NCBI GenBank assembly: GCA_030533405.1
Contig: JAUNJF010000003.1
Location: 75,204-139,203 of the forward strand
DNA length: 64,000 nt
DNA from: Eubacteriales bacterium
GTDB taxonomy: Bacteria; Bacillota; Clostridia; Lachnospirales; Lachnospiraceae
Reading direction: 5' to 3'
This document shows, piece after piece, positions 48,229 to 64,000 of the stretch; within the stretch, counting starts at the first letter, position 1, and each line of letters begins with the position of its first letter. The notes beneath the pieces are model-generated. The model did not search any database and was not told the origin of the DNA. It was given only the letters and a program-made list of their open reading frames with translations. The translations under genes were made by a program, and so were the position numbers.

Positions 48229-49206
48229 TTATTTATACATATTAGTTGAAAGATATTTCATACCATTGTCTGCAAGTATCACTACAATATTTTTTCCTTC
48301 ATTCTCTGGACGCAGTGCAAGTTCTTTTGCCGCTGTAAGTGCTGCTGCTGCTGAAGCTCCTAAAAATACACCATCTGTGGTTGCAACCTCTCTCGCTGTT
48401 GCGTAAGCATCCTCACCCTTTACATTAATCACCTCATCATATTTAAAGTTTCTTCTTACTACAAACGGATGGGTACAGCCTTCTGGCTTATCAAAGATTA
48501 CAACTCCATCGATTGTCGCTTTCGCATCTGGTACAAACGAGAGTGAATCTGGTGTCGGCTGAACGCCAACGATTTTGACACCTGGAACATGATCCTGAAG
48601 ATAACTTCCTACACCTGCAAGTGTTCCTGCTGTTCCTGCGAGCATAACAGCAATATCAATCTTTCCGTCTGTATCTTCAACTAACTCAGGTCCTGTTGTC
48701 TTATAATGGGCAAGTGGATTATTCTCATTAAATAACTGCTGTACATAATAATAATCCTTTTCCTTTGCATGTTTCGTAACACATTCCATAATCTTTACTG
48801 GATTAAATCCAAACTCTGCCACAACCTCCTTTGCACCTGGAATATCATCATATTCCTTTACATCCGTACCATACGCCTTCATAATCTGAATTCTCTCCGG
48901 TGTACAACCTGGCTCCATATAGATAATGAGTGGATGTCCTGTTGCTGCACAAAATGCTGCAAGCGCAATACCTGTATTTCCACTGGTTGTCTCAATCACA
49001 GTCTGTCCTGGCTTTAATTCCCCAGATTCTTCTGCAGCCTGAAGCATTGATAATGCCGCTCTATCCTTTATACTACCTGATGGATTAAAATACTCAAGCT
49101 TGCCTAAAACCTTAGCCCTCAAATGATTCTTTTCTTCAAAATTTACCAACTCTAATAGCGGTGTATGTCCAACTAATTCTGTTATACTTCTATGAATGTT
49201 TGCCAT
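48229..49206 (-). CDS. Cysteine synthase-like PLP enzyme, paralog 3
   Basis: The 325-residue fold-type II PLP enzyme has SGSIKDRAAL with the Schiff-base Lys47, TTSGNTGIALAAF (the Asn loop) and an AGTAGTLAGVG loop instead of the GTGGTITG phosphate loop of true CysK. An extra segment (about 210-250, with DKPEGCTHPFVVRRN) is reminiscent of the longer O-phosphoserine or cystathionine-synthase-like members. It should do beta-replacement on an activated serine, but acceptor and donor may differ from O-acetylserine and sulfide. It is 34 bases after the LanC-like gene and is the last gene of that operon. Confidence 0.85.
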   Translation of the reverse strand: MANIHRSITELVGHTPLLELVNFEEKNHLRAKVLGKLEYFNPSGSIKDRAALSMLQAAEESGELKPGQTVIETTSGNTGIALAAFCAATGHPLIIYMEPGCTPERIQIMKAYGTDVKEYDDIPGAKEVVAEFGFNPVKIMECVTKHAKEKDYYYVQQLFNENNPLAHYKTTGPELVEDTDGKIDIAVMLAGTAGTLAGVGSYLQDHVPGVKIVGVQPTPDSLSFVPDAKATIDGVVIFDKPEGCTHPFVVRRNFKYDEVINVKGEDAYATAREVATTDGVFLGASAAAALTAAKELALRPENEGKNIVVILADNGMKYLSTNMYK

Positions 49207-49240
49207 AATTAAAATCCTCCTATTTTTTACGCTCTTATCA

Positions 49241-50599
49241 TTAATCTAAAAATTCAAAAATCTGTGTAATTTCTTTTCCTGCCAATGCTCCATACAAAGA
49301 TACCAACGCACTGGCGGCACCTGCACTACCCATATATAATCCTATATGCGCATCCACATTCCAAGGCATTACTCTCGTCCAAGCATTATACCAACGTGTT
49401 CCTTCATCGTTTTTAAATGCATCACCAATCAGCTTATCTGCAATGTCTGTTGCCAGCTTCTTATATTTTTCATCTCCTGTTAGTTTGTAACCATCTATAA
49501 AATGTAGAAAAACTCCTGCACTACCACAGCAAATACAATCATTCCATAATCCTTTTGACCGCTTATATGTAACGCCTGCCTGATCAAGTGCATTTGTCAA
49601 TCGTTTATAAAAATCAAGATATTTAGCATCCTTCGTTGTCTTATAAAGTTCCTTTGCTACAATTGCATCTCCAACTGGTCCATGACACATACTTAAGTAA
49701 AATACATCAAATGGCTTATCTGCATTTTCCAAATATAAGTATGGAACAATCGATGCATTATCTTTATTGATTGCAATATTTTCAAGAAACGCAAAACCTG
49801 CCTTTGCTAACGCAAGATATGTTTCATCCTTTGTAGCCTGATAATATTTTGTTAAAAGGTAAACAATACCTGCCGTACCATGTGCGAAGTTCGGTAAAAT
49901 TCCTCCCTCTGGCAACTCTGGGAAATAATTATGTATATCAAAGAATTTCCAATATACGGTCCCATCCTCTTTCTTAGTATGAAATGTTATAATATAATCC
50001 AAGTATACCTTCGCATAAGAAACATACTTTTCATCCTTTGTAAGTTTATAAAGATACAACCAATATGCTACAACACTTCCATCACCCATGTAATCAGGAA
50101 TTCCAGACCAATGTATGAAACCATCTTCTTTGATTGCCTGTTCATAAGCCACATCTCCTGTTTTGATCGCATAGTCACGATATTTTTGTTCACCAGTCTT
50201 TTGATACAACAACTCTGCAAACAAACCCTCACCAGTCAGACCACCATGAATTCCAGGCTTTTGTCCCAAATCATCATGAAATGTGTTTAATAAATATTCA
50301 CCCGCAGCAATCGCTTGATCCAGATACGCTTTCTCCCCTGTCGCTTCATACAACTGTATATAGAAATGTCCAACGCCTGCAGCACCTGAATAAATGCTTC
50401 GATCTGTCATCTTTTCCGCAAGATCATCGCCTGCGCTACTACCTGCTCCACTGCTAATTTTCCATGCTTTTCCTATTTCTTTCTCAACTTCATTCTTCCC
50501 AAGCCATTTTTCAACATCAAGCGCTGCCTCAAGGTAACTCTCTGTATCATTCTTTTTATATACGCTAATGTCAGAATATGGAATTAACTTTTCTGCCAT
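49241..50599 (-). CDS. LanC-like protein with Cys-Cys-Gly zinc site
   Basis: The 452-residue protein folds as an alpha/alpha toroid with seven GxxG-type turns: GAAGVG (72), GGLTGEG (119), MGDGSVV (171), HGTAGIV (240), CHGPVGD (305), CCGSAGV (357) and MGSAGAA (423). Canonical LanC zinc ligands are a Cys in turn 5 and Cys-His in turn 6. Here Cys305 is present and turn 6 is Cys357-Cys358, a three-cysteine site as in ProcM-type cyclases. No leader peptide or dehydratase is nearby, so lanthipeptide making is doubtful. Its CysK neighbour suggests thiol addition to a dehydroalanine-like molecule; this is inference. Confidence 0.82.
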   Translation of the reverse strand: MAEKLIPYSDISVYKKNDTESYLEAALDVEKWLGKNEVEKEIGKAWKISSGAGSSAGDDLAEKMTDRSIYSGAAGVGHFYIQLYEATGEKAYLDQAIAAGEYLLNTFHDDLGQKPGIHGGLTGEGLFAELLYQKTGEQKYRDYAIKTGDVAYEQAIKEDGFIHWSGIPDYMGDGSVVAYWLYLYKLTKDEKYVSYAKVYLDYIITFHTKKEDGTVYWKFFDIHNYFPELPEGGILPNFAHGTAGIVYLLTKYYQATKDETYLALAKAGFAFLENIAINKDNASIVPYLYLENADKPFDVFYLSMCHGPVGDAIVAKELYKTTKDAKYLDFYKRLTNALDQAGVTYKRSKGLWNDCICCGSAGVFLHFIDGYKLTGDEKYKKLATDIADKLIGDAFKNDEGTRWYNAWTRVMPWNVDAHIGLYMGSAGAASALVSLYGALAGKEITQIFEFLD

Positions 50600-50764
50600 C
50601 TATTCATCTCCTTTTTTCATTCTCTATTAAGTCTGTAGGTTTTCTATGAATAGATACTAGCATTTTTACGTATCCCTGTCTAATCAATAAATTTTGTTAT
50701 TCGTTATCATTTTTTCTTATAACAGCATTAACTTTATAACATGTTGCAAACATAACTTCATGTA

Positions 50765-51538
50765 CTAATTACAAGAAATGCCGCCATCCACTGTAAGTGA
50801 CGCTCCAGTGATAAAAGATGCATCATCACTGGTAATAAACAACACTGCATCAGCTATATTTTTCGGTGTACCATATGGAACAACAGGATCCATTCCAGCC
50901 TTCACTCTCTCAAATCCAAATGCACTTTCCTGTTCATGGTTTGCGGACATATCTGTTTTGATTGCACCCGGACATATTGCATTGCATCGGATTCCCTTAT
51001 GCAAATACATAAATGCTGTATGTTCAGTCAATCCAATCACGCCATGCTTAGATGCTGTATATGCTGAACTTGCTCTACAACCCTTTAACCCTGCCATAGA
51101 AGCAATATTCACAATATTTCCTCCATGTTCCTGTTCCAGCATAACATTTACAGCCTTTCGCATTGCATACATGGTTCCTGTAAGATTTACCGAAATAATT
51201 CGTTCCCATAAATCATTATCAAGTTCGCCGATTGGTTCATATCTTCCACCAATACCTGCATTATTCACTAAAATATCTAATTTACCAAATTGTTCTACCG
51301 CATATGTAATCATACCTTCTGCATTTTCCTGTTTCGAAATATCTCCTACAAAAATTTCTAATTTTCCTGGAAAATTCTCTTTTGCAACTTCTTCTTTTAG
51401 CACATTTAATGCGTCTTCTTTTAAATCCACCGCAACCACATTAGCACCCTCCTTTAAATAGCGTAATGTGATTTCCTTACCCATTCCATTTCCTGCTCCT
51501 GTCACTACAATACTCTTATCCACAAATTTCATTTTCAT
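50765..51538 (-). CDS. SDR-family oxidoreductase
   Basis: The 257 residues carry the classical SDR motifs: VVTGAGNGMGKEITLRYL (TGxxxGxG, about 12-18), VDLKED (the Asp that prefers NAD(H) over NADP(H)), NNAG (about 89-92), the IASMAG serine and YTASKHGVIG with the catalytic Tyr-Lys. TVDGGISC at the end is typical. It oxidises or reduces an alcohol/ketone of unknown identity. It is the first gene of the SDR-LanC-CysK set, 205 bases beyond the Rrf2 gene. In that gap lie a palindromic repeat copy and a TTGACA with no good -10. Confidence 0.88.
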   Translation of the reverse strand: MKMKFVDKSIVVTGAGNGMGKEITLRYLKEGANVVAVDLKEDALNVLKEEVAKENFPGKLEIFVGDISKQENAEGMITYAVEQFGKLDILVNNAGIGGRYEPIGELDNDLWERIISVNLTGTMYAMRKAVNVMLEQEHGGNIVNIASMAGLKGCRASSAYTASKHGVIGLTEHTAFMYLHKGIRCNAICPGAIKTDMSANHEQESAFGFERVKAGMDPVVPYGTPKNIADAVLFITSDDASFITGASLTVDGGISCN

Positions 51539-51565
51539 ACACTCCTGTCTTTCTAATTTTAATTC

Positions 51566-51607
51566 GGTAAATGCAAACTCTCAATCACGCAAATTGAGTT
51601 TTGCAAT
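51566..51607. repeat. Small hairpin related to the 21985-22197 palindrome
   Basis: TGCAAACTCTCAAT (from 51573) folds against AATTGAGTTTTGCA to form a stem with a short loop. The sequence GGTAAATGCAAACTCTCAAT and the AATTGAGTT arm are close to GGTAATTGCGAAACTCTCAAT and AATTTGAGTT at 21988-22022. It lies in the leader of the SDR gene. A second copy of the same dispersed element, reduced to its outer hairpin, is likely. Confidence 0.55.
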
Positions 51608-51743
51608 ATCCTATTTTCATATAAATGATATCTTTATTATTTATTTCTGTCTAATACACAAAAATAATGTCAAGTCATAAATTCCATTTATAACCTGACA
51701 TTATATTACTCACACATTATGTGATGACACACACCTTAATCTC

Positions 51744-52160
51744 TTAATTTCCATCCTTTTTCCAATCAATCAGATCCTGAAGTGTAGTATTTTCCAGCAC
51801 ATCATCCATGGCCTGGTTTAATTTTCTCCACAAGGGATAGCAAAAACATATATCTCTGCGCTCACAAACTTCATCTCCATGTGCACAATCTGTTGGATAT
51901 AAATCTCCATCTAAACACTTAATAATCTCTCCAACTGTATACATATCCGCAGTTTTTACAAGTCGATATCCCCCCTTTGCACCTCTTGCACTTTTTACCT
52001 TTTTAGATTTTTGTAAATGCGACACTATATTTTCCAAATATTTTTCAGATATGCCTTCACGCTCGGCTACCTCCTTCAGTCTAACAAAGGCTGGCCCCTG
52101 ATATAACGATAAATCAATCATAAATTTGAGCGCATTTTTTCCTTTTGTTGTAATAACCAT
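51744..52160 (-). CDS. Rrf2-family regulator, IscR-type cysteine set
   Basis: The 138-residue regulator begins with the winged helix (TTKGKNALKFMIDLSLYQ, then VRLKEVAEREGISEKYLENIV with the recognition helix, and SARGAKGGYRLVK wing). Cys92, Cys99 and Cys105 are spaced almost as the three cluster ligands of IscR (92, 98, 104), so a Fe-S cluster is likely. CymR, the Rrf2 regulator that pairs with CysK in Bacillus, has no such set. By position it should regulate the nitrogenase-like genes or the SDR-LanC-CysK genes in response to iron-sulfur or sulfur status. An inverted repeat lies in its own leader. Confidence 0.9.
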   Translation of the reverse strand: MVITTKGKNALKFMIDLSLYQGPAFVRLKEVAEREGISEKYLENIVSHLQKSKKVKSARGAKGGYRLVKTADMYTVGEIIKCLDGDLYPTDCAHGDEVCERRDICFCYPLWRKLNQAMDDVLENTTLQDLIDWKKDGN

Positions 52161-52172
52161 TCCATCACCTCT

Positions 52173-52193: not shown

Positions 52194-52210
52194 TTTCATT
52201 TCAAAAATAT

Positions 52211-52234: not shown

Positions 52235-52241
52235 TTTTATA

Positions 52242-52667
52242 CTAACCTTGTCTTAATGATTTGTGATTATCAATCTTATCATAATAATTCGCTATTTTTT
52301 CTAATGCTTCCGTTATATTACAGGCAATATCAAACACAGAAATAGCCTTTCTTTCAAATTGTTTTTGTGCCTGAAATCCCACTTTTGCACAAAGCACACA
52401 TCTGCAATCTGCTATCCTTTCAACTTTTTGCGTCACTCCCGCAGAACCTCCACATCCATGTCCATTTCCTGAGCATCCCTCCGAATTACATTCTGCAGTT
52501 CTACAAATGTTACTTTCTGTATAATCTTCATTCTCTTCAATCACTCTTGATTCTAATAACGTGAATTCTTTTCCACTCACTTTATAAATCAAAAAATGAT
52601 CTACTTCACCAAACTTCAAATCTATATTTTCTCCATCGGAAGATCCGATTGCAACCAAATAAGCCAT
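52242..52667 (-). CDS. NifX/NafY-like cofactor-binding protein with Cys-rich insert
   Basis: The 141 residues have the dinitrogenase-cofactor fold of NifX (SDGENIDLKFGEVDHFLIYKV at the N-terminus, then IADCRCVLCAKVGF and a helical end). Between the two halves is an insert with Cys55, Cys60, Cys65, His70 and Cys72, and Cys88, Cys90, Cys93 follow. NifX-type proteins carry NifB-co or related clusters between NifB and the final site. This extra Cys/His patch could hold a metal cluster. It is the final gene of the operon, directly after the NifK-like gene and a hairpin. Confidence 0.85.
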   Translation of the reverse strand: MAYLVAIGSSDGENIDLKFGEVDHFLIYKVSGKEFTLLESRVIEENEDYTESNICRTAECNSEGCSGNGHGCGGSAGVTQKVERIADCRCVLCAKVGFQAQKQFERKAISVFDIACNITEALEKIANYYDKIDNHKSLRQG

Positions 52668-52688
52668 TTATTTCACATCCTTTATATA

Positions 52689-52735: not shown

Positions 52736-54034
52736 TTAATTAAATCTAGAAACAGCCACTGTATAAATATCTTCTATTAAGCGTATACCACCTGCATATC
52801 CAACATAAAAGCTATCAAATACCACCTTATCCTGCACTGGCCACGAAACATTCAAAAAATTACCTTTTAATGATTCTGTCACTTCTTTTTCATAATAACC
52901 ACCAAGTACCAATGGATATCCATGATAATCATGATTCTGAATTTCTTCGTGAATCTTATATCCATCTGTTTCAAAGGATACTTCTGCTTCGATGCCATAA
53001 TTCAGATTTTTAAACTCTTCTGCAATCTGCTCCCTATAATTTTTAGGTGTATCATCGACAACAAATTGTTTTGCTGGTACTAATCCCAAATCATTCACCA
53101 AGAACTTCGTAATTCCAAGTGTATACTGTGCATCTGCAACAACTGTGAACTGCTTATTGATAACACGATTTTCCAAAAAGAGATCTGCATATCTTTCTAT
53201 AAGATAGTAATAATAATCTTCATGTTCCTTAATAACAGCTTCTATCTTCTCATCTGCAACACCTGCAAATTTACCAATTTCACGTAAAAATTTGCTTGTT
53301 TCAGTTGCTCCAATTGGAAGCGTCTTATAATGTAAATATGGAATTCCTAATTTTCTTTCCATTTTCTTCATGGAACCAAGGCCAACCCAAGGAGAAACCA
53401 GTAAATTAAACTCCGCCTCTGGAATCTTGTTGATATTATCAATACCACGTTTATATCCAAAAATCGTATTTGGCGTTAATCCAATTTCTTTAATTAGTTT
53501 TTCAAGCTCTCTTATATTTCCAAGCCAAAACAAATCCTGATATGGAACATCAGCCCAAATATTTACAAGTCCTTTTTGCTTTGTTTCTGACTTTTCTAAA
53601 TACTGTTCAACAATGGCATCAATAACCTGTTCATGTCCCTTAAAGTTGTTTCCTTTAAATCCTGCAGTAGGCGCATAGATAACTGGTTTTTCACCATCTG
53701 TAAATCTAGAAACAACTTCACTAGAATCATCTCCAACAATTTCAGGAATACATCCAGTAAGAACTACGTATAAATCTGCATCAACTACCTTAAGTGCATT
53801 TTTAATTGTAGAATTTAATTTCTTTACACCACCAAACACAACATCCTTTTCATTAATACTCGTACAAGGAAATATATTGGGTGAAAAATAGCCCGAACTT
53901 CCCGTTGATTCTGATAACTTTTGTGCACATCCTGGACCCGAATGTAAAATTGGAAGTGCTCGTTCAATCGCCTGCACACTTTGCATTGCACCAAGTGCAC
54001 ATTTATATCTCTGTTTATCAAGTAATTTTGCCAT
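52736..54034 (-). CDS. Nitrogenase-like catalytic component, beta (NifK-like)
   Basis: The 432-residue protein is a short NifK/NifN homologue. CALGAMQSVQAIERALPILHSGPGCAQ and VLTGCIPEIVGDD supply Cys12, Cys36 and Cys95, matching the spacing of the three P-cluster ligands of NifK (70, 95, 153: gaps 25 and 58; here 24 and 59). The C-terminal PVQDKVVFDSFYVGYAGGIRLIEDIY fits the family. It lacks the long N-terminal extension of true NifK. It forms the partner of the NifD-like subunit, with start and stop codons overlapping by one base. Reduction of dinitrogen is not implied; see the alpha subunit. Confidence 0.88.
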   Translation of the reverse strand: MAKLLDKQRYKCALGAMQSVQAIERALPILHSGPGCAQKLSESTGSSGYFSPNIFPCTSINEKDVVFGGVKKLNSTIKNALKVVDADLYVVLTGCIPEIVGDDSSEVVSRFTDGEKPVIYAPTAGFKGNNFKGHEQVIDAIVEQYLEKSETKQKGLVNIWADVPYQDLFWLGNIRELEKLIKEIGLTPNTIFGYKRGIDNINKIPEAEFNLLVSPWVGLGSMKKMERKLGIPYLHYKTLPIGATETSKFLREIGKFAGVADEKIEAVIKEHEDYYYYLIERYADLFLENRVINKQFTVVADAQYTLGITKFLVNDLGLVPAKQFVVDDTPKNYREQIAEEFKNLNYGIEAEVSFETDGYKIHEEIQNHDYHGYPLVLGGYYEKEVTESLKGNFLNVSWPVQDKVVFDSFYVGYAGGIRLIEDIYTVAVSRFN

Positions 54035-55500
54035 TATTTCGCCTCCTCTAAGAATGTATTTACATCCTGCTCATACCACCAGTCTGTATATGGAAGCTTT
54101 GTTCTCTTTGCAAGATTTGCCTCAAAACTTCTATTTTTAATTGCATCGACAATCGTCTTTGCAAATTCCAGCGTATGCTTATAACCAAATATCATATACT
54201 CATCAGCAACATAAATTGCTGGCGTACCATTTTTTATCGCCCAAACTGTCGAACCCGGATGACGAGATAAATACATATCCGGCTGATATTTATTAAGTAT
54301 GTTCATTACCTCGTAGTTTTGCTGATCCGCAACACTTGCCTCAAAATCAATGTCATTATCTAAAAGATATTTCATTGATGGTGGTACATCACCATTTTCA
54401 TATTTCTTGTCATAATGCCATGCAAGAGCCCACACCACCTTAATTCCTAATTCATCTAGTACTCTTGACACCTCAAATGTATAACCAGGTCCCATACCAA
54501 GAACTGCAGTAAGACCTTGAAGTTCTTTTTTCACCTCTTCAATTTGCGGAATATAGATTGCACGTTGCTCTTCAATATACTTTTCTACAAGTTCGCTTCG
54601 ATTGGTTACTTTTCCAATCTCTCTAAGCCATGCCTCAAAACCTTTGATTCCGCACTGATTAATGCTTCGAACGTATGGCACACCATATTTCTCTTCTAAT
54701 GCATTTCCAAGATAATTTCCAAGAGTTCCACAAATACAAGTTGTAGCTATACTTTCTGATAAATGTGACAATTCCTCAATCGTAGAATTACAATATAAAA
54801 ATACTGGCTCCAAATCAAAATTCTTAAAAATATCGATAATTTCAGGTCTCGCACTTTCAAAGAAGTTCTTGAAATTAATTTTATTCGTTTTTACACCTTC
54901 TCTTGGAGGCTGTACAATTTCTTGCAAAATAGCATGATCAGAAATATCAAAACCTGTTGCCCAAATTCTTGACTTAAAACCTTCACAATGAACTGCAACA
55001 ATTGGAACACTTATTTCTTCCCTTACTTCTTCCACAATACTGTCAATATCTTCTCCAATAATACCCGTCGCACAAGAACTAGAAACAAAAATTGCCTTAG
55101 GTGAATATCTCTTATTTACTTCAAGAATTACATTTCGAAGTGTTTCAGTTGAACCAAAAATTGTATCATTTTCATTCATATCTGTTCCTACATAAATTGT
55201 ATCGCTTGTAACACCTCTTTTTTTTGCCATAACTCTGGACATATAATACGAAGTTGCACCAGCAACTGAACATCCAGCTGGTCCATGATGGATTACCGCA
55301 ACATCTCGAATTGCAGCCAACTGACTTAATCCACAAGTAGACAAACATGTACTTGACTGTGAAAAACATCTTGAACATCCCTTTAAGGTTCCACATTCGC
55401 TTTGACTAGCGAGATCTTTTAATGTACCAACATATCCTGTTATAGAACCAATTCTGTTCTCTCTTGTTGCTACATTTGAATTACTTAAATTAATTGCCAT
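54034..55500 (-). CDS. Nitrogenase-like catalytic component, alpha (NifD-like)
   Basis: The 488-residue NifD homologue has P-cluster-type cysteines Cys52, Cys77 (IHHGPAGCS) and Cys143 (SSSCATGIIGEDI). The 77-143 gap (66) equals that of NifD. Cys257 in CICGTLGNYLGNALEEKYG aligns exactly with the FeMo-co ligand Cys275. The FeMo-co His442 region reads YVADEYMIFGY, with no His, and the NifD His195 segment is replaced by EGFKSRIWATGFD. So a P-cluster and a cofactor are expected, but the catalytic pocket is not that of N2 fixation. Methylthio-alkane reductase is the best known relative by logic. A cysteine-rich N-terminus (36, 42, 45, 52, 56) is unusual. Confidence 0.9.
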   Translation of the reverse strand: MAINLSNSNVATRENRIGSITGYVGTLKDLASQSECGTLKGCSRCFSQSSTCLSTCGLSQLAAIRDVAVIHHGPAGCSVAGATSYYMSRVMAKKRGVTSDTIYVGTDMNENDTIFGSTETLRNVILEVNKRYSPKAIFVSSSCATGIIGEDIDSIVEEVREEISVPIVAVHCEGFKSRIWATGFDISDHAILQEIVQPPREGVKTNKINFKNFFESARPEIIDIFKNFDLEPVFLYCNSTIEELSHLSESIATTCICGTLGNYLGNALEEKYGVPYVRSINQCGIKGFEAWLREIGKVTNRSELVEKYIEEQRAIYIPQIEEVKKELQGLTAVLGMGPGYTFEVSRVLDELGIKVVWALAWHYDKKYENGDVPPSMKYLLDNDIDFEASVADQQNYEVMNILNKYQPDMYLSRHPGSTVWAIKNGTPAIYVADEYMIFGYKHTLEFAKTIVDAIKNRSFEANLAKRTKLPYTDWWYEQDVNTFLEEAK

Positions 55501-55516
55501 ATCTATTTATCCTTTC

Positions 55517-56533
55517 CTAAAATCCAACTTTTCCCTCAATTTCCGGTCTGATCTTTTGCAAATCTTCTGAAAGATATCTTTCTCCATTATCCGGCAAAAG
55601 AGGAACAATAAGCTTTCCTTCATTTTCTTCAAGAAGTGCCTGCTTGATTGCTACTGCGAGAGATGCTCCTGCCGATGCACCTACAAATATCCCTTCGTAC
55701 TTCGCTAACAAATGAATTGCTCTTAAAGTTTCTGCATATGTAATAAAATGATATTCATCTGTTAATTCATTACTAAAGTTAGCAGGTGCCATAGGGGTAA
55801 TTCCATTCTCATCATGCACTTGATGAATCCCATGAAATCCACCATCTTCTGCACCTTTTACTACCGGATTCGCCACATCATCTGGTGAAGGTTGTGTAAT
55901 AATAGTTTTTATTTTTTTATTCTGCTCTTTAAGATATTTGCTAATTCCATGTGTGGATCCACCTGTACCAACACCTCCAACAAAAATATCTATTTTCCCA
56001 TCTGTATCTTCCCATATTTCAGGTCCTGTAAACTTGTAATGCGCATTTATATTATCTGGGTTATCCAACTGTCTAGTGACATATGCATCATCAATATCCT
56101 GTTTCATATATTCAAGTACATCACTAAAAGCCGCAATCCCTCTGTCAAAAACTCCTGCAGTCAATTCATTAGGCACATCTGTAATATCTGCCTGATACGC
56201 TTCAAGGAGTTTGAGCCTCTCCTCAGAAACTCCATTTTGAAGTCCAATCTTAAATTTATATCCCTTTGCAGCTGCAAAGGCTGCCATTGCAATTCCTGTA
56301 TTTCCACTGGTAAATTCAATAAGTGTTGTTTTATCTGGATGAATATCACCTCTTTTTTCTGCAGCTTCAATAATCTCCAAAGCAATTCTATCTTTATGAG
56401 ATCCTGCCGGATTAAAGTATTCCAATTTTCCAGCAACTCTACCTTTTAGACCAAGCGCTTTCTCTAATCTCTTAAATTCAACAATAGGTGTTCTTCCGAC
56501 AAGTTCTGTAACTGACTGATAAATTTTTCCCAT
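55517..56533 (-). CDS. Cysteine synthase-like PLP enzyme, paralog 2
   Basis: The 338-residue fold-type II enzyme reads NPAGSHKDRIAL with Lys47, where canonical CysK has GSVKDR; FTSGNTGIAMAAF and GVGTGGSTHGISKYL are also altered. An insertion near residues 215-245 (DGGFHGIHQVHDENG) and a longer C-terminus (to EGKVGF) separate it from classical CysK. It lies between nifH and the nifD-like gene, 16 bases before the latter, so it is surely co-expressed with the reductase. Capture of the sulfide or thiol made by the reductase is the natural guess. ATG 56533 begins the family N-terminus with AAAGGA before it; two earlier ATGs are possible. Confidence 0.85.
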   Translation of the reverse strand: MGKIYQSVTELVGRTPIVEFKRLEKALGLKGRVAGKLEYFNPAGSHKDRIALEIIEAAEKRGDIHPDKTTLIEFTSGNTGIAMAAFAAAKGYKFKIGLQNGVSEERLKLLEAYQADITDVPNELTAGVFDRGIAAFSDVLEYMKQDIDDAYVTRQLDNPDNINAHYKFTGPEIWEDTDGKIDIFVGGVGTGGSTHGISKYLKEQNKKIKTIITQPSPDDVANPVVKGAEDGGFHGIHQVHDENGITPMAPANFSNELTDEYHFITYAETLRAIHLLAKYEGIFVGASAGASLAVAIKQALLEENEGKLIVPLLPDNGERYLSEDLQKIRPEIEGKVGF

Positions 56534-56566
56534 ATCCATCATTTCCTTTCTAAAAATATTTGCCCT

Positions 56567-57501
<935 letters not shown>

Positions 57502-57858
57502 TTACATAAATAATTGTTTTAGTTTTTCATAATTTATCATTTGATTAATTGAATCTTCTATAAGTCCAGGTATTTCATAACATTCAATCCCTTTTCTTTC
57601 CGCTAATGCCGCAGCACCATTTCCAATCCGACTCACCAGCAAATAATGACAATCAGATATTCTTTCAATATTTTTTAGCAATTTTTCTTCATCGTGGTTA
57701 CCACCTTCGCATACTGGTTTGACCTCTCTTTTTTCCCAAAGACTAGGAATATCATTTTCAATTTTATAGATCAAAAAAGATTTCGCCCTTCCAAAATGCT
57801 GATTCACTACAATTCCATCACTAGAAGCAACCGCAATTAACCGTTTCTTTTCATCCAT
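57502..57858 (-). CDS. NifX-like / NifB C-terminal-type domain protein
   Basis: The 118-residue protein is a stand-alone dinitrogenase-cofactor domain: IAVASSDGIVVNQHFGRAKSFLIYKIEND, with the conserved HFG, then ISDCHYLLVSRIGNGAAALAERKGIECY. In many NifB proteins this domain is fused at the C-terminus; here it is a separate gene overlapping nifB by eight bases. It probably holds the NifB-co-like cluster during transfer. A second, Cys-rich relative lies at 52242-52667. Confidence 0.88.
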   Translation of the reverse strand: MDEKKRLIAVASSDGIVVNQHFGRAKSFLIYKIENDIPSLWEKREVKPVCEGGNHDEEKLLKNIERISDCHYLLVSRIGNGAAALAERKGIECYEIPGLIEDSINQMINYEKLKQLFM

Positions 57859-58723
57859 GAGAAAATGTCTCCTTCACATTTAATCTTCTTTGATATATCT
57901 GATCACCATATTCTGATTTTCCCGGAACTCCAACTGCATCTGCTCTACAATGTTGACAATGTCTAAACACATCTATATACCTACTAGCTTTCGTTCTTGC
58001 TTCATCAATTTCCGCACACACAGGTGCTTTTACATCTTTCAGTTCATGTTGTGGAATCAAAGGAATGATATTGTATATGCTTGCCCCCGCTTGCTTTACG
58101 TTTTTTGCAATTTCCTCAATGTGTTCTCCATTAATCTCTGGAACAAGAACCGTATTAACCTTTACCGTAATGCCTGCTGCTGCAACTTTTTTAATTCCCT
58201 CCAACTGATTTTCAATTAATATCTTTGCACCTTTGACACCTTCTATCTTTTCTCCATGATATATTATGTACGCATTCAATTTACTTTCTATTTCTGGATC
58301 AACCGCATTTACTGTAACTGTCAACGAATCAATTCCTACAGCAATCACATCATCTGCTCTTTCATTCAGCAATAATCCATTCGTGCTCATACATCTAATC
58401 AAATCCGGAAATTTTTCTTTAATCATTTTAAATGTATTCAATGCATTATCTGACGCTAATGTATCTCCCGGACCAGCAATACCTGCCACCTTAATATCTG
58501 GACACAAATCCAATGCCTTCGAAAGGATTTCTTCACATTCTTCTGGCTTTAATATTTTTGACGTTACACCTGGTCTTTTCTCCACATCATTCAAGGTTCT
58601 GTCACAGAACCTACAAGCAATATTACACCCAGGGCTCACCGGAAGATGAATTCTACCTGCATTATTCTTATGCCCGCCAAAACAAGGATGAGAACTCTGT
58701 AGGTCTTTATATGTATTACTCAT
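57851..58723 (-). CDS. nifB: NifB-type radical SAM cofactor maturase
   Basis: The 290-residue radical SAM protein has HPCFGGHKNNAGRIHLPVSPGCN, the CxxxCxxC triad Cys33-Cys37-Cys40 (CNIACRFC), Cys14, and the C-terminal CQHCRADAVG (Cys256, Cys259), all hallmarks of NifB. RPGVTSKIL and GIAGPGDTL match NifB too. NifB builds the 8Fe-9S-carbide precursor. I chose ATG 58723 (GAGGGTG before it). The frame is open further upstream, but that part reads through the tRNA-like gene and has no homology. It is a short NifB lacking the NifX domain. Without NifEN, NifB-co may be inserted directly. Confidence 0.95.
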   Translation of the reverse strand: MSNTYKDLQSSHPCFGGHKNNAGRIHLPVSPGCNIACRFCDRTLNDVEKRPGVTSKILKPEECEEILSKALDLCPDIKVAGIAGPGDTLASDNALNTFKMIKEKFPDLIRCMSTNGLLLNERADDVIAVGIDSLTVTVNAVDPEIESKLNAYIIYHGEKIEGVKGAKILIENQLEGIKKVAAAGITVKVNTVLVPEINGEHIEEIAKNVKQAGASIYNIIPLIPQHELKDVKAPVCAEIDEARTKASRYIDVFRHCQHCRADAVGVPGKSEYGDQIYQRRLNVKETFSHG

Positions 58724-58781: not shown

Positions 58782-58851
58782 CGATCCCGGTTGGACTCGA
58801 ACCAACAACTTCGGAGTTGCAATCCTATGCCATTCCAGCGGCCACGGAATC
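58782..58851 (-). tRNA. tRNA-Cys-like gene, anticodon GCA, non-canonical
   Basis: The 70-base minus-strand sequence folds as a tRNA: acceptor GATTCCG/CGGGATC (one G-U), D-arm GCC/GGC with GCTGGAAT loop, anticodon arm TAGGA-TTGCAAC-TCCGA (anticodon GCA, U33, A37; one A-G mismatch), four-base variable loop AGTT, and T-arm GTTGG-TTCGAGT-CCAAC. The TGGCC...TGG..GGCA D-arm resembles tRNA-Cys. It departs from tRNA-Cys identity: discriminator G73 in place of U73, and no CCA is encoded. It lies 58 bases upstream of nifB in a sulfur operon. A divergent extra tRNA-Cys, a regulatory tRNA-like RNA, or a decayed copy are all possible. Confidence 0.75.
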
Positions 58852-58858: not shown

Positions 58859-58934
58859 AAAAAACCAGAGATTTTGCACTTCCAAGTAACTGTTCGCTAA
58901 CACCGAATCAATCCTTATGTGCAAAACCTCTGGT
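58859..58934 (-). terminator. Long hairpin with T run between yezD and tRNA-like gene
   Basis: Minus-strand ACCAGAGGTTTTGCAC (58919-58934) pairs over 16 bases with GTGCAAAATCTCTGGT (58864-58879), with one G-U pair, followed by six T. The loop is unusually large (39 bases). It ends the cysK-yezD message in part, or acts as a conditional terminator ahead of the tRNA-like gene and nifB. The large loop suggests a structured RNA function in addition to termination. Confidence 0.78.
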
Positions 58935-58947
58935 CTTTCCAGTCAGT

Positions 58948-59111: not shown

Positions 59112-60047
59112 CTAGTTATTAAATAATGGCGTAGACAAATATCTATCTCCAGAATCAGGAAGCAATGCTACAATTGTCTTTCCCTTATTTTCTGGTCTCT
59201 TAGCAAGAATCTCTGCAGCCTTAAGTGCTGCACCTGACGAAATTCCAACCAAAATACCTTCTGAAACAGCAAATGCCTTTCCTTCTGCAAATGCATCTTC
59301 ATTATCAATGGCAATAATTTCGTCATATACCTTTGTATTCAAAACATCTGGTACAAATCCCGCTCCAATTCCCTGAATCTTATGTGCTCCTGGCTTACCA
59401 GTTGATAGTACAGCACTTGTTGCAGGCTCAACAGCAACGACTTTCACATCTGGGTTTTGTTCCTTCAAATATTCTCCAACACCTGTGATGGTTCCACCTG
59501 TACCAACGCCAGCAACAAATATATCAACCTTTCCCTCTGTCTGTTTCCAAATTTCAGGACCAGTTGTTGCTTTATGCACCTTAGGATTTGCAGGATTTAC
59601 AAACTGTCCAAGAATAACCGAACCCTCAATCTCCTTGTTAAGCTCCTCGGCCTTCGCAATCGCACCCTTCATACCTTTAGCGCCTTCTGTAAGAACAAGC
59701 TCTGCACCATAAGCCTTCAAAAGATTTCTTCTTTCCACACTCATTGTATCCGGAAGCGTTAAAATCGCTTTATATCCCTTTGCTGCAGCTACCGATGCAA
59801 GACCGATACCTGTATTTCCACTTGTCGGTTCAATGATTGTTGCTCCTGGTTTTAAAATTCCCTTTTCTTCTGCATCCTCTATCATAGCCAATGCAATTCG
59901 ATCCTTAACAGATCCTGCTGGATTTAAATATTCCAGTTTTGCAAGTACAGTTGCCTGTGTAATCTCTCTTTTCTTCGCATAACCATTAAGCTGTAATAAT
60001 GGAGTTTCTCCAATTAATTCTAATGCACTCTGTTTAATTTCACTCAT
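59112..60047 (-). CDS. cysK: Cysteine synthase A (O-acetylserine sulfhydrylase)
   Basis: The 311-residue enzyme has the full canonical CysK signature: [15 protein letters not shown] with Lys48, [13 protein letters not shown] and the [16 protein letters not shown] phosphate loop, then [11 protein letters not shown]. It makes cysteine from O-acetylserine and sulfide. ATG 60047 has GGAGG eight bases before it; an ATG 15 bases upstream is within that ribosome site. It is first in the yezD/nifB direction and has a structured leader with a terminator. It likely takes sulfide from the nitrogenase-like reductase into cysteine, in parallel with the two divergent paralogs. Confidence 0.95.
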
Positions 60048-60073
60048 ATTCTTTTCCTCCATAAATAAATTTT

Positions 60074-60162: not shown

Positions 60163-60189
60163 TTATTCCCTCTTTGGATTGACTCTATA

Positions 60190-60242
60190 TTATCATGAAC
60201 GTATTCATTTGAAAATTTGATAAATTTTATCATCAATGATAA
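60190..60242. promoter_or_regulatory. TTATC/GATAA operator-like sites upstream of cysK
   Basis: TTATCAT-CA-ATGATAA (60227-60242) is a perfect inverted repeat. GATAA (60219-60223) forms a second pair with it, and another TTATCATGAAC lies at 60190. The same TTATC-six bases-GATAA unit occurs before the rhodanese-ThiF gene (61407-61422). Spacing and symmetry suit a LysR-type site; the LysR regulator is encoded nearby. Confidence 0.5.
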
Positions 60243-60282
60243 CTTTTTCTTATTGCATATTCGTTTAATATATTATCCTCTT

Positions 60283-61380
60283 TCAACCCACAAGTGTAGT
60301 AGCACATGCCTTCATTCTATAACAATTCGCATTATCCTGAATATTGGTTATACTCGCGTCATCCCCACACACTTTACATCTTACATTTTTATTTGGTAAT
60401 TTCACTATCCTACTTGTCATAGAAAGTCCGTCAAATACATACATTCTTTTTACTAGCAAATCTCCTATATCGGTAATATACTTAATTGCTTCTAAAGCCT
60501 GTATACTACCAATTATCCCTGTCACAGCACCAATAACTCCTGCGGTAGAACAATTTGGCATATCCGGATTCTCAGGAATATTCTCAAATATACATCTATA
60601 ACAAGGACCTTGATCTGGCACATATGTCATGACCTGACCATGAAATCCTATACATCCAGCATGACAAAATGCTTTTTTATGAAGCACACACGCATCATTC
60701 ACCAGAAATTTAGTTTCAAAATTATCAGAAGCCTCAATAATAAAATCATATTCACATATTATTTTCTCGATATTTTCCGGTGTAATAAAATCTGTATATA
60801 CATTTACTTTAATATTGCAATTTAGACGTTTTATTTTTTCTTTCGCATATAAAGCCTTATTCACATTAATACCTTCCATATCATGAATAATCTGCCGCTG
60901 CAAATTGGATACACTTACAACATCTGCATCAATCAATCCAATTTCACCAACACCTGCGCTGGCTAAATATAAAGCAACCGGAGATCCCAATCCTCCAACT
61001 CCAACAATCAACACCTTTGCTTTTTTTAATTTCTTTTGTCCTTCTATTCCTATTTCCGGAAGAATAATCTGTCTATCATAACGCTGGAGTTCTTCCTCAG
61101 ATAACTCATCTAAATAATGAATCAACCACGATTTGTAACCACCAACTAAATCATATGCTTCATACCCACGTTCTCGCAATTTTTTCACCACAACTGCGCT
61201 CTTTTGACCATACATACAATATACGATAAGTTTTTTATTTTTATGTTTTTCTTCCGACAAAGATTCTATTTCAATTGCTCCATCAATGTGACCATGCATA
61301 TATGCTACACTTCCTCTTGTATCAACAAACAAAATGTCACGCAGATTCAACGTTTCCGCTTCTTCTATTGTAATTTTCAT
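60283..61380 (-). CDS. Rhodanese-ThiF/MoeB fusion protein
   Basis: The 365-residue protein has an N-terminal rhodanese domain (1-100; catalytic Cys55 in VYCMYGQKS) followed by an E1-like ThiF/MoeB domain (ATP loop VGVGGLGSP at 127-135, then LQRQIIH, PDMPNCSTAGV with the likely catalytic Cys277, and zinc pairs Cys260/Cys263 and Cys335/Cys338). In MoeZ-type proteins the order is ThiF then rhodanese; here it is reversed. It should adenylate the C-terminus of a small sulfur-carrier protein and load sulfur on it. No such carrier (ThiS/MoaD type) is visible nearby. Its role may be to supply activated sulfur to the cysteine pathway. Confidence 0.9.
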   Translation of the reverse strand: MKITIEEAETLNLRDILFVDTRGSVAYMHGHIDGAIEIESLSEEKHKNKKLIVYCMYGQKSAVVVKKLRERGYEAYDLVGGYKSWLIHYLDELSEEELQRYDRQIILPEIGIEGQKKLKKAKVLIVGVGGLGSPVALYLASAGVGEIGLIDADVVSVSNLQRQIIHDMEGINVNKALYAKEKIKRLNCNIKVNVYTDFITPENIEKIICEYDFIIEASDNFETKFLVNDACVLHKKAFCHAGCIGFHGQVMTYVPDQGPCYRCIFENIPENPDMPNCSTAGVIGAVTGIIGSIQALEAIKYITDIGDLLVKRMYVFDGLSMTSRIVKLPNKNVRCKVCGDDASITNIQDNANCYRMKACATTLVG

Positions 61381-61406
61381 ATATATCTTCTTACCTTTTC
61401 ACTCTC

Positions 61407-61434
61407 TTATCATTAACGATAACAAATTATTATC
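61407..61434. promoter_or_regulatory. TTATC/GATAA operator-like site upstream of rhodanese-ThiF
   Basis: TTATC-ATTAAC-GATAA (61407-61422) is an inverted repeat in the 58-base gap between the LysR gene and the rhodanese-ThiF gene, with a further TATC at 61431-61434. It matches the sites upstream of cysK. Confidence 0.5.
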
Positions 61435-61438
61435 ACCA

Positions 61439-62344
61439 TCATAATTCCTTATATTTCAACAATTCCTCAATATATGTGGTTCCAATATCACTAATTGCAT
61501 GGTTTTCCCTTACAAGATACCCTATTGTAAGCGGATCTTCTTCCTTTAATTTAATACACACAAAACCGTCTTTTAAAGCAATACTCTCTGTCATATTTCC
61601 TGTTCCAATTGAATATCCATTCAGAGATGCCATTAATTCCGCTGTGGTTGCTCTATCATTTGATTTCAGAAGTTTATGAAAATCATAATCGCCAAGTGCT
61701 TCTTCTGTTAGATAATAATCGCTCTCACCATTCTGATCAAAAGAGACACACGGATAATTCTCCAATTCCTCTAATGACAACTCTTGCTTACCAGCTAATG
61801 GATGTGTCTTCCACAAATATGCATATGTATTTCGCATCATCAATGGTACAAATTTTAACTGATATTCTCTAAACAATTTCTTCATTACTTTTTCATTATT
61901 GTTAGAATACGAAATAATACCGATTTCACTTTTCAAATTTTTAACACTACTAAGCACATCTTCTGTTTTCGTTTCATGAACAGCATAAACATATTTCTGC
62001 GCATCATATTTCTTTACTGTATTAATAAATGCGTGCAACGCAAACACATAGTGTTGCATAGATACACTAAAATGCTTCTTATCTTTCCACTTATCGATAT
62101 ACCGGTCTTCTATTAGTTCATATTGGCTCACTGCCTGTTTTGCATAAGCCAAAAATTCTCTTCCCTCATCTGTAATACTTACACCTTTATTATTTCGCTC
62201 AAATATCTGAATATTAATCTCTTCTTCCAATTCTCGTATTGTAAAAGACAAGGCCGGCTGAGAAATAAACAGCCGACTCGCCGCCTCTCTCATGGAAGAG
62301 GCATTTGCTAGAGCAATTACATATTTTAGTTGCATAATTGTCAT
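61439..62344 (-). CDS. LysR-family transcription regulator
   Basis: The 301-residue regulator starts MTIMQLKYVIALANASSMREAASRL with the usual winged HTH (ISQPALSFTIRELEEEI) and a two-lobed inducer domain. ATG 62344 has GGGAGGAG before it and is preferred to a start 33 bases earlier. CysL, CysB and SalR-type LysR proteins control sulfur genes, and SalR-like regulation of methylthio-alkane reductase gives a precedent. Here TTATC/GATAA repeats near cysK and the rhodanese-ThiF gene are likely targets. The inducer may be O-acetylserine or a sulfur compound; unknown. Confidence 0.92.
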   Translation of the reverse strand: MTIMQLKYVIALANASSMREAASRLFISQPALSFTIRELEEEINIQIFERNNKGVSITDEGREFLAYAKQAVSQYELIEDRYIDKWKDKKHFSVSMQHYVFALHAFINTVKKYDAQKYVYAVHETKTEDVLSSVKNLKSEIGIISYSNNNEKVMKKLFREYQLKFVPLMMRNTYAYLWKTHPLAGKQELSLEELENYPCVSFDQNGESDYYLTEEALGDYDFHKLLKSNDRATTAELMASLNGYSIGTGNMTESIALKDGFVCIKLKEEDPLTIGYLVRENHAISDIGTTYIEELLKYKEL

Positions 62345-62369
62345 ACTATTCTCTCCTCCCAACAACTTA

Positions 62370-62996
62370 TTATGCACATTTCCAATTACATTTTACACTT
62401 TCATAAATAGCTTCCGCTAAGTTGTCATGTCCCACAATGTCTAAATGTTCCTGATCCGCCTTACTTGGACTTGCGTATTCTGACGCTGCAAGAAAATGAA
62501 CCTTTCTCTTCTCAGCAACCTTCTGATACTCTTCCTTCAAATGCTTGGACACCACCACTGAATTTGCATTAAATTCTGGATCATATTGTTCCATCCAAAC
62601 ATCCTCTCCTAACTGAATTGGCGATACCAAAAGAACCTTTTCTGGAGCAACATATTTTAAAACCAAATCCAAACATTCTTCAACACCATGTGCAATTCTC
62701 TTTTCTGTATTTCCATAATGAGATTTACAATCATTTGTTCCAAGCATCAGAATTACAGAGTCGATATCCTTTGTTTCCTTAAAAATATCTCTAAGCGTAT
62801 TCACACCTTTTCGATTTGGTCTGCTAACATCTTCAAACACTGTTGTTCTTCCACATAATCCCTGCTCTATAATATTCACATCGTTTAGTTTTTCCTGTAA
62901 TTTACTTGTCCACCGAATTCCCCATGGATACCGTTCCTTTGTGTTTGGATTATATCCCCATGTATTAGAATCACCAAAGCATAATATATTTTTCAT
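62370..62996 (-). CDS. SGNH/GDSL hydrolase
   Basis: The 208-residue protein has Block I ILCFGDSNTWGYNP with the catalytic Ser, Gly block residue in EQGLCGRTTVFED, Block III ILMLGTNDCKSHYG with the Asn, and the C-terminal DQEHLDIVGHDNLAEAI with Asp and His. It is probably an arylesterase-like esterase of the TesA/SGNH family acting on small acyl esters. No signal peptide. ATG 62996 is preferred over a start 24 bases upstream since GGAGGTG fits it. It precedes the LysR gene by 25 bases. An O-acetyl esterase role on acetylated amino acids is possible but not shown. Confidence 0.85.
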   Translation of the reverse strand: MKNILCFGDSNTWGYNPNTKERYPWGIRWTSKLQEKLNDVNIIEQGLCGRTTVFEDVSRPNRKGVNTLRDIFKETKDIDSVILMLGTNDCKSHYGNTEKRIAHGVEECLDLVLKYVAPEKVLLVSPIQLGEDVWMEQYDPEFNANSVVVSKHLKEEYQKVAEKRKVHFLAASEYASPSKADQEHLDIVGHDNLAEAIYESVKCNWKCA

Positions 62997-63082
62997 AGCG
63001 AATAACACCTCCAAATTCATCTTTTCTTATGATTTACCAATATAGCACTACTGCTTGTTTTGAGTCTAATACATATAATCTT

Positions 63083-64000
63083 TCATTCGTGATAACTATT
63101 CTTTATAACATCACGGATACGATCTAACGCTTCCTTTAAAGTCGCTGTATCGGTAGCAATATTAATTCTCTCAAATCCTTCACCAACCGCTCCGAATATA
63201 GCACCACTATCTAACCAAAGCTTTGCTTTATTGACAATCAAATCTTCTCTTTCATCTTCACGCAAACCAAGATTTCTAAAATCAATCCATATCAAATATG
63301 TTCCCTCTGGTTCAATCAATTTGATTTCTGGTATCTCTGTCTGAATATATTCTCTGACAAAATCTAAATTCTTTTTTAGATATTTCTTCAGTTCCTGATA
63401 CCATTCCTCACCGTATTTATATGCAGCCTCGCAAGCCACAATTCCCATCGTATTGAGCTGACTATAACCTGCTGCTGCGATTTCTTTTTTAAATGCATGT
63501 CTTAAATGAGCATCCTGAATGATAATATTAGATATCTGCAAGCCTGCTAAATTAAATGTTTTTGCTGGAGAGGTTGCGGTAATACAATACTCCTTGATTC
63601 TTTCATCTACATTTACAAGTGGTGTGTGCGTATATCCATCAAATGTAAAATCCTCATGAATTTCATCGCTCACTACAACCACCTCATATTTGACACAGAT
63701 TTCTGCAATTTTTTTCAACTCTTCTACTGACCACACTCTACCTACTGGATTATGCGGACTGCAAAGCAAAAATAATTTCACATGATTTTCTTTAATTTTC
63801 TGTTCAAAATCCTCAAAATCAATGTGGTATTTTCCATCCTCCAAAAGCACTAAATCATTGCTCACAAGCTTTCTGTTATTATCTACAATTACCTCTGTAA
63901 ATGGATAATAAACAGGTTGCTGGATTAGTACTGCATCTCCTTCTTTTGTGTATGCCTTCACAGCCATTGCAAGTGCAAATACAACACCAGGTGTCTTTAC
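63083..64000 (-). CDS. MalY/PatB-type C-S lyase, N-terminus beyond window
   Basis: The open frame runs 306 codons to the right edge, including KTPGVVFALAMAVKAYT. This text matches the GVVPAL...A.R.FT segment of MalY/PatB cystathionine beta-lyases. The PLP lysine lies in ATSPAKTFNLAGLQIS, and LCSPHNPVGRVW and VVVSDEIHEDF are typical. These enzymes split cystathionine or other S-conjugates to give a thiol or sulfide, ammonia and pyruvate. It opens the sulfur cluster in transcription order. The first roughly 85-95 residues are outside the window. Confidence 0.92.
   Translation of the reverse strand, partial: VKTPGVVFALAMAVKAYTKEGDAVLIQQPVYYPFTEVIVDNNRKLVSNDLVLLEDGKYHIDFEDFEQKIKENHVKLFLLCSPHNPVGRVWSVEELKKIAEICVKYEVVVVSDEIHEDFTFDGYTHTPLVNVDERIKEYCITATSPAKTFNLAGLQISNIIIQDAHLRHAFKKEIAAAGYSQLNTMGIVACEAAYKYGEEWYQELKKYLKKNLDFVREYIQTEIPEIKLIEPEGTYLIWIDFRNLGLREDEREDLIVNKAKLWLDSGAIFGAVGEGFERINIATDTATLKEALDRIRDVIKNSYHE

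Follow-up and report, generated by a model that had tools for sequence, protein, structure and literature searches.

A cluster of genes in the last 16 kb (48229-64000, entirely on the - strand) of a 64,000-nt stretch of Lachnospiraceae DNA (hereafter the window, to whose positions all gene coordinates refer) probably encodes an ATP-driven nitrogenase-like reductase, a sister of methylthio-alkane reductase (Mar), that cuts carbon-sulfur (C-S) bonds, delivers sulfide to CysK-type enzymes and may be controlled by RNA. Substrates are known for few nitrogenase-like enzymes, and the C-S bond-cutting ones matter for sulfur supply and for hydrocarbon release in anoxic places. Our reading draws on the genes, family, ligand positions, synteny and covariation found in the sequence, together with the missing sulfite reductase and NifEN. 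An earlier sequence-only reading had described Nif-like genes interleaved with CysK, YezD, PatB and regulators, and all of these, along with the rhodanese-ThiF, LysR and Rrf2 genes, are present as open frames on a single strand (-). A large part of this block is found again in 80 named loci, indicating that the grouping is not due to chance. A tRNA-Cys-like gene and two copies of a hairpin (hp) element also belong to the cluster and were absent from that description.

Kinship to Mar, proposed in the sequence-only reading, is borne out by both subunits. The best chain in the Protein Data Bank (PDB) for the NifD-like protein (NflD) is R. rubrum MarD (9fmg; 297 bits, 33% identity), with nitrogenases at no more than 127 bits, and for its NifK-like partner (NflK) it is MarK (370 bits), the next matches being nitrogenases at no more than 90 bits. 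An AlphaFold model of NflD (predicted local distance difference test, pLDDT, 88) has 9fmg as its best fold, with a template modelling (TM) score of 0.89 compared with about 0.7 for nitrogenases. On the nifD equivalog model NflD scores 135.7 bits against a cut-off of 653.55, whereas a true nifD relative (L092) reaches 684.5.

We placed NflD in a tree of 58 D-subunit rows, made by a quick search with Shimodaira-Hasegawa-like approximate likelihood ratio (SH-aLRT) support only; the tree covers D and not K, holds one characterised MarD and excludes Bch, CfbD, Vnf, Anf, NfaD and reference IsrD rows. The names clade A and group b were coined in this analysis, and rows called Isr-like (after isethionate reductase, Isr) are named from their cysteine pattern alone. 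The window's NflD falls within the 16-row clade A (SH-aLRT 99). Clade A, R. rubrum MarD, group b (nine Mar-like rows) and three other rows form one clade (99), inside which Mar and group b make a clade of their own (97), leaving clade A outside the clade of the characterised MarD. True NifD/NifE (100) group elsewhere in the tree, as do the rows whose cysteine pattern is the one described for IsrD (100). On this sequence placement, clade A is a sister of Mar and not a member of it.

To compare active sites we used MarD numbering, with the P-cluster cysteines set through columns shared with NifD rows; the roles of most MarD pocket residues follow the available portion of the Mar structure paper (PMC12552129), which describes Arg428-His429 as a possible hallmark of Mar. 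NflD C52, C77 and C143 lie in P-cluster columns common to NifD, and NflK C12, C36 and C95 align with MarK cysteines. At the [Fe8S9C] site, NflD C257, R413 and H414 occupy the positions of MarD Cys270, Arg428 and His429. All 16 clade-A rows conserve MarD Cys66, Cys91, Cys158, Cys270, His375, Trp195, Phe199, Arg428 and His429. From these positions we infer that NflDK holds a P-cluster and an [Fe8S9C] cluster as Mar does, in an altered pocket.

The genome encodes exactly two PF00148 proteins, NflD and NflK, so a NifEN pair is not present, and it has one strong NifH (436 bits), the other three matches scoring at most 35.7 bits. The NifB-like match covers positions 9-279 of the 441-position TIGR01290 profile, the portion without the NifX-like end; together with the first NifX-like protein it spans most of that profile (9-279 and 327-438), and it would make the [Fe8S9C] precursor.

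The genome gives no match to the NIR_SIR sulfite reductase, a search that was positive in 11 of 14 well-known genomes used as controls. Sulfide is favoured as the product because CysK types are the commonest partners of the reductase and no sulfite reductase is seen. The sequence-only reading had assigned the cluster to sulfur assimilation with release of sulfide or a thiol; context and the missing sulfite reductase strongly suggest the assimilatory role, and the release itself we infer.

To examine the context more broadly, we scanned named genomes and took the best 80 of at least 576 confirmed loci (62-94% identity; some genomes occur twice, e.g. L065 and L162). Neighbours were labelled by best match to a small reference protein set, in which "CysK1" also takes CysK copies about 50% identical, and all counts are lower bounds because contigs end. 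Among the 80 loci, NflK is found in 78, NflH in 59, NifB in 57 and the two NifX types in 54 and 51. CysK lies directly upstream of nflD in 52 of the 75 loci with room for it. Less frequent companions are YezD (34), the hp element (32), a metB type (29), PatB (25), LysR (23), the tRNA-Cys-like gene (21), a cystine-type binding protein (19), Rrf2 (14), CysK3 (7) and LanC (5). The sequence-only reading had counted the LanC-like gene as part of the set, but with 5 of 80 loci it is an occasional companion outside the core.

Hosts of clade A among the loci listed include Lachnospiraceae, Ruminococcus, Butyrivibrio, Lacrimispora, Clostridium, Megamonas, Propionispira, Treponema and Bacteroidales. Several of the 80 loci come from records titled as rumen samples, and cultured carriers include Lachnobacterium bovis DSM 14045, Butyrivibrio sp. 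M55, Ruminiclostridium hungatei DSM 14427 and Lacrimispora celerecrescens. The spread over Bacillota, Treponema and Bacteroidales loci suggests transfer between phyla. The Bacteroidales and Treponema metagenome-assembled genome records (L165-L167, L190-L192) carry clade-A D genes 82-86% identical to that of the window, which points to such transfer or else to binning errors. In a survey of 250 genomes of the family (D homolog threshold E <= 1e-20), 39 had a D homolog; in 13 of these, the window's genome included, it was a near full-length clade-A match of at least 63%, and two more held clade-A fragments.

These observations fit the following mechanism. NifB, aided by the NifX-like carriers, would make the [Fe8S9C] cluster, which NflDK would take up directly, without NifEN, molybdenum or homocitrate. 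With ATP, NflH would send electrons through the P-cluster to the [Fe8S9C] site, where the C-S bond of a small organosulfur compound would be reductively cleaved. The freed sulfide (or, less likely, a thiol) would pass through CysE- and CysK-type enzymes to cysteine, and MetB- and PatB-type enzymes would transfer sulfur further, to homocysteine and methionine. When reduced sulfur runs short, the cluster would be turned on by LysR, Rrf2 and a YezD-linked RNA attenuator.

An unlikely alternative is methionine salvage as in R. rubrum, in which methanethiol freed from 2-methylthioethanol or dimethyl sulfide is joined to activated homoserine by a MetB/MetY-type enzyme to give methionine. Mar is the closest characterised relative, a gene for a Cys_Met_Meta_PP enzyme adjoins patB and a metB-type gene accompanies the relatives at the frequency given above. 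However, the metB-type enzyme scores 460 bits as cystathionine gamma-lyase/synthase and 312 as O-acetylhomoserine (OAH) sulfhydrylase, and CysK types are the commonest neighbours. Moreover, the Propionispira arboris locus L212 encodes both a clade-A D protein (72% identical to the window's) and another sharing about 73% identity with R. rubrum MarD; because both occur in one locus, clade A and Mar are not simply interchangeable. That locus holds a clade-A NflDK, a divergent second NflDK and the Mar relative, which is cut by the locus end.

Cleavage of sulfonates with release of sulfite, as by Isr (IsrBHDK of R. capsulatus), is much less probable. Isr is also nitrogenase-like, has a sulfur-assimilation context and is said to occur in intestinal bacteria (PMC11423573, in the part available), and ATP-binding cassette (ABC) transporters, some of sulfonate type, lie near clade-A relatives. 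By the same source IsrD has a single P-cluster cysteine, lacking two others and the cofactor cysteine, and yields sulfite, whereas clade A retains all of these cysteines and the Cys62/Cys154 and Cys275 equivalents are all present in NflD. We rejected sulfonate release, since the Isr-type cysteine losses are not seen and no sulfite reductase was detected in the genome for using sulfite.

A simple NifEN-less nitrogenase, as proposed for Endomicrobium NfaDK, is more improbable still. NflH exceeds the nifH cut-off, NifB- and NifX-like genes are present, and PMC9147875, in the passage available, cites 15N2 uptake without NifEN in Endomicrobium proavitum, presumably through NfaDK; the D tree includes no NfaD row. 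We nevertheless rejected N2 fixation: NifEN is lacking, the nifD score is far under its cut-off, NifD Gln191/His195 are replaced by Trp/Phe as in Mar, whose [Fe8S9C] enzyme does not reduce N2 according to the portion of PMC12552129 available, and the neighbours of clear role are sulfur genes. Tetrapyrrole chemistry is rejected because none of the cluster proteins reaches the Bch and Cfb curated cut-offs (DPOR/COR/CfbCD), NflH coming near that of CfbC (393.9 versus 402) yet exceeding that of nifH; the sequence-only reading had named a tetrapyrrole or F430 placement as the outcome that would contradict it, and the D ligands and curated cut-offs argue against such a placement, on which the D tree, lacking Bch, CfbD, Vnf and Anf rows, does not bear.

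Several observations weigh against the C-S cleavage and sulfide-supply interpretation or limit it. In the pocket, each of the 16 clade-A rows has Ile in place of MarD His194, and Ser or Gly replaces MarD Cys73 (Ser59 in the window's NflD); because these two residues differ, Mar chemistry is not to be assumed. The best model for NflK among those compared is BchB (106.9 bits, cut-off 490.35), ahead of nifK (98.7), both far under their cut-offs. The cysE-type (serine O-acetyltransferase) protein encoded past the window scores 158.2 bits, under its curated cut-off of 210.65. The genome is a draft, 95.8% complete, which makes the absence calls provisional. The D gene was not found in the sole other genome of the same genus that was searched, which makes the system accessory. 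Within the window we saw no dedicated transporter, and the transporters beside relatives vary among cystine, methionine and sulfonate types, so the context names no single substrate. We also considered whether a CysK beside nflDK and a cystine-type transporter are mutual substitutes, finding no support for this (Fisher p 0.22; among 58 loci with room, 30 have CysK alone, 8 the transporter alone, 10 both and 10 neither). On the regulatory side, the hp element also precedes genes for a hisC-type protein (L133), an 893-aa protein of no family (L134), an oligopeptide permease (L221) and a radical SAM protein (L130), none of which points clearly to sulfur.

The first candidate regulatory RNA lies at the end of yezD. 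CTGACTGGAAAGACCAGAGG lies one base downstream of the yezD stop, and its 3' arm also opens a strong terminator. The stretch 58867-58934, which stops short of the final bases of the stem, has a folding energy of -26.2 kcal/mol (z -5.3); a simple terminator scan passes over the terminator because its loop is long. Behind the second copy, in the gap between nflH and cysK2, no terminator was seen. These two copies are the only matches to a looser form of the pattern in the window's genome. Against Rfam, the leader (58859-58946) gave no hairpin match at E <= 5, and the only match at gathering score in the cluster is the tRNA.

Searching 398 genomes of the phylum with the strict hp pattern, we found 26 sites in 22 genomes, compared with none for the reversed pattern. 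Pairing is complete at 25 of the 26 sites, and there is covariation at both variable pairs (p 2e-4 and 3e-5, uncorrected for kinship); these phylum matches, selected with no pairing rule, were used for covariation because the loci survey had retained only rows with pairing arms. YezD was recognised near 9 of the 26 sites, on the opposite strand in two. In the collected loci the motif lies within 150 nt of 28 of 46 YezD frames, and in 18 of those 28 it begins four bases before the frame end, so that yezD ends on the TGA within CTGAC as its stop codon. The looser pattern has matches in 69 of the 250 family genomes, of which 18 were judged by eye to carry the true motif, with loop and stem intact; G021, G089 and G090 were set aside as doubtful and the remainder as background. 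DUF2292, the YezD domain, occurs in 14 of these 18 genomes (none in G184, G243, G142 and G174), and 9 of 23 DUF2292 genomes are without the strict motif, among them G207, which has a CGAC variant (L096). The overlap has a chance probability of 7e-14, a value inflated because motif and domain often share one locus. YezD as an obligate partner of the hairpin is thus unsupported, since 4 of 18 motif genomes and 9 of 23 DUF2292 genomes lack the other.

Elsewhere the hp motif precedes genes for a sulfate transporter and a sulfopropanediol dehydratase (both over their cut-offs) and for sulfonate-type and cystine-type transporters (below cut-off). The matches in L138, L140 and L143 overlap a reading frame, wholly or in part, and could be due to chance. 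The hairpin CTGACYRGANAACYRGAGG, often by YezD, stands ahead of many sulfur genes in Bacillota and Treponema loci (L279, L283, L288, L297). DUF2292 is listed as uncharacterised in Pfam, and the predicted fold of YezD is of low confidence (pLDDT 66.7; predicted TM score 0.31). Longer YezD-like proteins, apparently with two DUF2292-like repeats as judged by eye, occur in L212 (19626-20048) and L214 (875-1231).

The second candidate RNA is the tRNA-Cys(GCA)-like gene of 70 nt between the terminator and nifB. Of 64 clade-A loci with NifB, 24 carry it, as does locus L088 (some genomes again counted twice); in these 25 cases it lies 5-147 nt ahead of nifB. For covariation we assembled 24 distinct copies, including one from L095 that is not beside nifB; they were collected by D arm and T loop letters, which fixes some D- and T-stem pairs and leaves the acceptor stem free. 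Across these copies 94.4% of cells pair and 10 pairs vary on both sides, with a covariation score of 0.347 compared with at most 0.124 for slid structures. At one position of the anticodon stem (columns 26-40) none of the 24 copies forms a pair. The minimum-energy fold of the window's copy differs from a cloverleaf (z -0.96), and the cloverleaf is assigned because the stems covary, not from that fold.

It is possible, if doubtful, that this is an ordinary or decaying tRNA unrelated to regulation: its score is tRNA-like (45.3 bits), and it was not found in 40 of the 64 clade-A loci with NifB. However, decay is contradicted by the 10 stem pairs that covary over 24 copies, and a model of the embedded tRNA gives a single match of 91-98 bits in 7 of 20 genomes, everything else scoring at most 57 bits and a separate tRNA-Cys of 48-56 bits being present in six of those seven, which marks a class distinct from the housekeeping tRNA. 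Its placement ahead of nifB, or in L095 ahead of a YezD-hp pair, likewise weighs against this reading. Housekeeping tRNA-Cys has U73 and A14 in 13 of 13 copies read in this family; in the embedded kind, all 24 copies have A or G at 73, and C or T at position 14 as numbered from the 5' end. U73 is described in the accessible text of PMC7609411 as an identity element for tRNA-Cys charging. A housekeeping tRNA-Cys was not found in the window's own draft genome, and at a strict threshold the embedded kind occurs in 9 of 392 genomes of the order. The L095 copy (16838-16909, -) is the same odd tRNA-Cys, directly ahead of a YezD-hairpin pair in an Isr-like, not clade-A, locus.

Because the gene sits behind the attenuator, the tRNA-Cys-like RNA would be made on read-through, unless it has its own promoter, and a role in sensing or mRNA processing is more likely than one in decoding. 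More speculatively, the two RNAs could form a single device, in which a YezD-coupled attenuator serves a sulfur regulon across Bacillota and Treponema and a non-decoding tRNA-Cys paralog reports cysteinyl-tRNA or cuts the transcript, setting nifB and the reductase; combined with a new activity that turns thiols or thioethers into sulfide and a hydrocarbon (methylated sulfur in the rumen giving methane or ethane, for example), this proposal is tentative.

Known systems share parts of this arrangement. Mar itself (MarBHDK of R. rubrum; PDB 9fmg, 9d9u) is the closest sequence neighbour of D and K and the closest fold and tree neighbour of D, with the same P-cluster/[Fe8S9C] ligand positions, Arg-His loop, Trp195, Phe199 and His375 and a NifB-type partner gene, and it resembles the window's genome in the lack of NifEN; clade A differs in its 33% D identity, separate clade, the His194 to Ile and Cys73 to Ser/Gly changes, its mostly CysK-type and YezD partners and its coexistence with a 73% Mar relative in L212. 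The sequence-only reading had called the gene set undescribed. Adjacency of nitrogenase-like and cysteine synthase genes has been known since 2012, when Dos Santos et al. (PMC3464626) noted that nitrogenase-like alpha subunits bearing an equivalent of Cys275 have cysteine synthase or OAH sulfhydrylase as neighbours; the available part of that paper gives the association but not clade A, YezD, the hp element or the tRNA-Cys-like gene. We found no description of clade A, of its tRNA-Cys-like gene or of the hairpin linked to YezD in the open-access main texts searched, partly available, and to that extent this part of the novelty claim holds. A 2023 preprint (PMC10418091, in part) reports MarHDK-like genes within or close to type I mlp clusters, mostly of Firmicutes anaerobes, tied to methyl-sulfur metabolism; these are likewise Mar-like genes of anaerobes, are assigned to group IV-A and stand with corrinoid methyltransferases, and were compared with clade A by description only.

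The RNA parts also have partial precedents. Going by the portions available of PMC7609411 and PMC5424206, housekeeping and selC* tRNA-Cys share the GCA anticodon and cloverleaf, and tRNA-Cys genes beside SepCysS are a precedent for tRNA-Cys next to sulfur genes. The embedded tRNA differs in having neither U73 nor A14, in its 7/5 arms and 70 nt (selC* has 8/4) and in its position by nifB, YezD and an attenuator. In the part of Naville and Gautheret 2010 available (PMC2965389), a premature-terminator attenuator, apparently of bacilli, lies before a sulfonate ABC transporter and an unknown gene; it resembles the hp element in description only, alignments not having been compared. We treat the two RNA elements as a lead, still open, that may point to a sulfur-sensing RNA system and a role for DUF2292. 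If the proposed function is right, a sister clade of Mar would help explain how rumen and gut bacteria, including this one, which seems unable to reduce sulfite, supply sulfur for cysteine, and clade A may be a further source of sulfide or small hydrocarbons. The system can be tested in the cultured carriers.

Features of the cluster, in window coordinates, with the profile, structure or sequence evidence for each (PLP, pyridoxal phosphate)
Feature	Position	Strand	Evidence
CysK3, divergent CysK-type PLP enzyme	48229-49206	-	PF00291; 242 bits, under cysK cut-off
LanC-like protein	49241-50599	-	PF05147 107.5 bits; weak LanCL matches in PDB
Short-chain dehydrogenase (SDR)	50765-51538	-	PF13561
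Rrf2-type regulator (IscR/CymR-like)	51744-52160	-	PF02082; IscR 109.9, CymR 108.0 bits, both under cut-off
NifX-like cofactor carrier 2	52242-52667	-	PF02579
NflK, NifK-like partner subunit	52736-54034	-	PF00148; best PDB match MarK
NflD, NifD-like catalytic subunit	54034-55500	-	PF00148; best PDB match MarD 9fmg
CysK2, CysK-type PLP enzyme between nflH and nflD	55517-56542	-	PF00291; 246.5 bits, under cysK cut-off
hp element copy 2, between nflH and cysK2	56564-56582	-	
NflH, Fe-protein reductase	56638-57486	-	TIGR01287 nifH 467.6 bits (cut-off 394.35)
NifX-like cofactor carrier 1	57502-57858	-	PF02579
NifB-like radical SAM protein, ATG at 58723	57851-58723	-	TIGR01290 262.3 bits (cut-off 343.65)
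tRNA-Cys-like gene, anticodon GCA, G73, CCA not encoded	58782-58851	-	ARAGORN; Rfam RF00005 45.3 bits
Terminator hairpin CCAGAGG...CTCTGG + T-run, overlaps 3' arm of hp copy 1	58859-58933	-	sequence
hp element copy 1, consensus CTGACYRGANAACYRGAGG, one base past yezD stop	58927-58946	-	
YezD, DUF2292, 50 aa	58948-59100	-	PF10055 66.3 bits (cut-off 22)
CysK1, cysteine synthase A	59112-60062	-	TIGR01139 450.7 bits (cut-off 350.95)
Rhodanese-ThiF protein	60283-61380	-	PF00581 + PF00899
LysR-type regulator	61439-62377	-	PF00126/PF03466
PatB family C-S lyase, 398 aa whole, cut by window end	63083-64000	-	TIGR04350 485.3 (cut-off 340), whole protein

Only CysK1 reaches the cysK equivalog cut-off, CysK2 and CysK3 falling short; in the alignment CysK2 retains the conserved lysine and the TSGNTG loop. 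Past position 64000 the contig (locus L234) continues with the rest of patB, then the metB-type and cysE-type genes. The metB-type protein matches best as cystathionine gamma-lyase/synthase, the 25 listed of 42 families all being under cut-off. A promoter scan gave 52 sites compared with 64.5 in shuffles, i.e. no excess. The trio of SDR, LanC-like and CysK3 genes (48229-51538) recurs at other places in a few relatives (L149, L061), and the LanC-like protein has CHG and CC motifs, seen by eye, that could bind zinc. Elsewhere in the window, a flavin mononucleotide (FMN) riboswitch lies at 28469-28598 (-; Rfam 101 bits).

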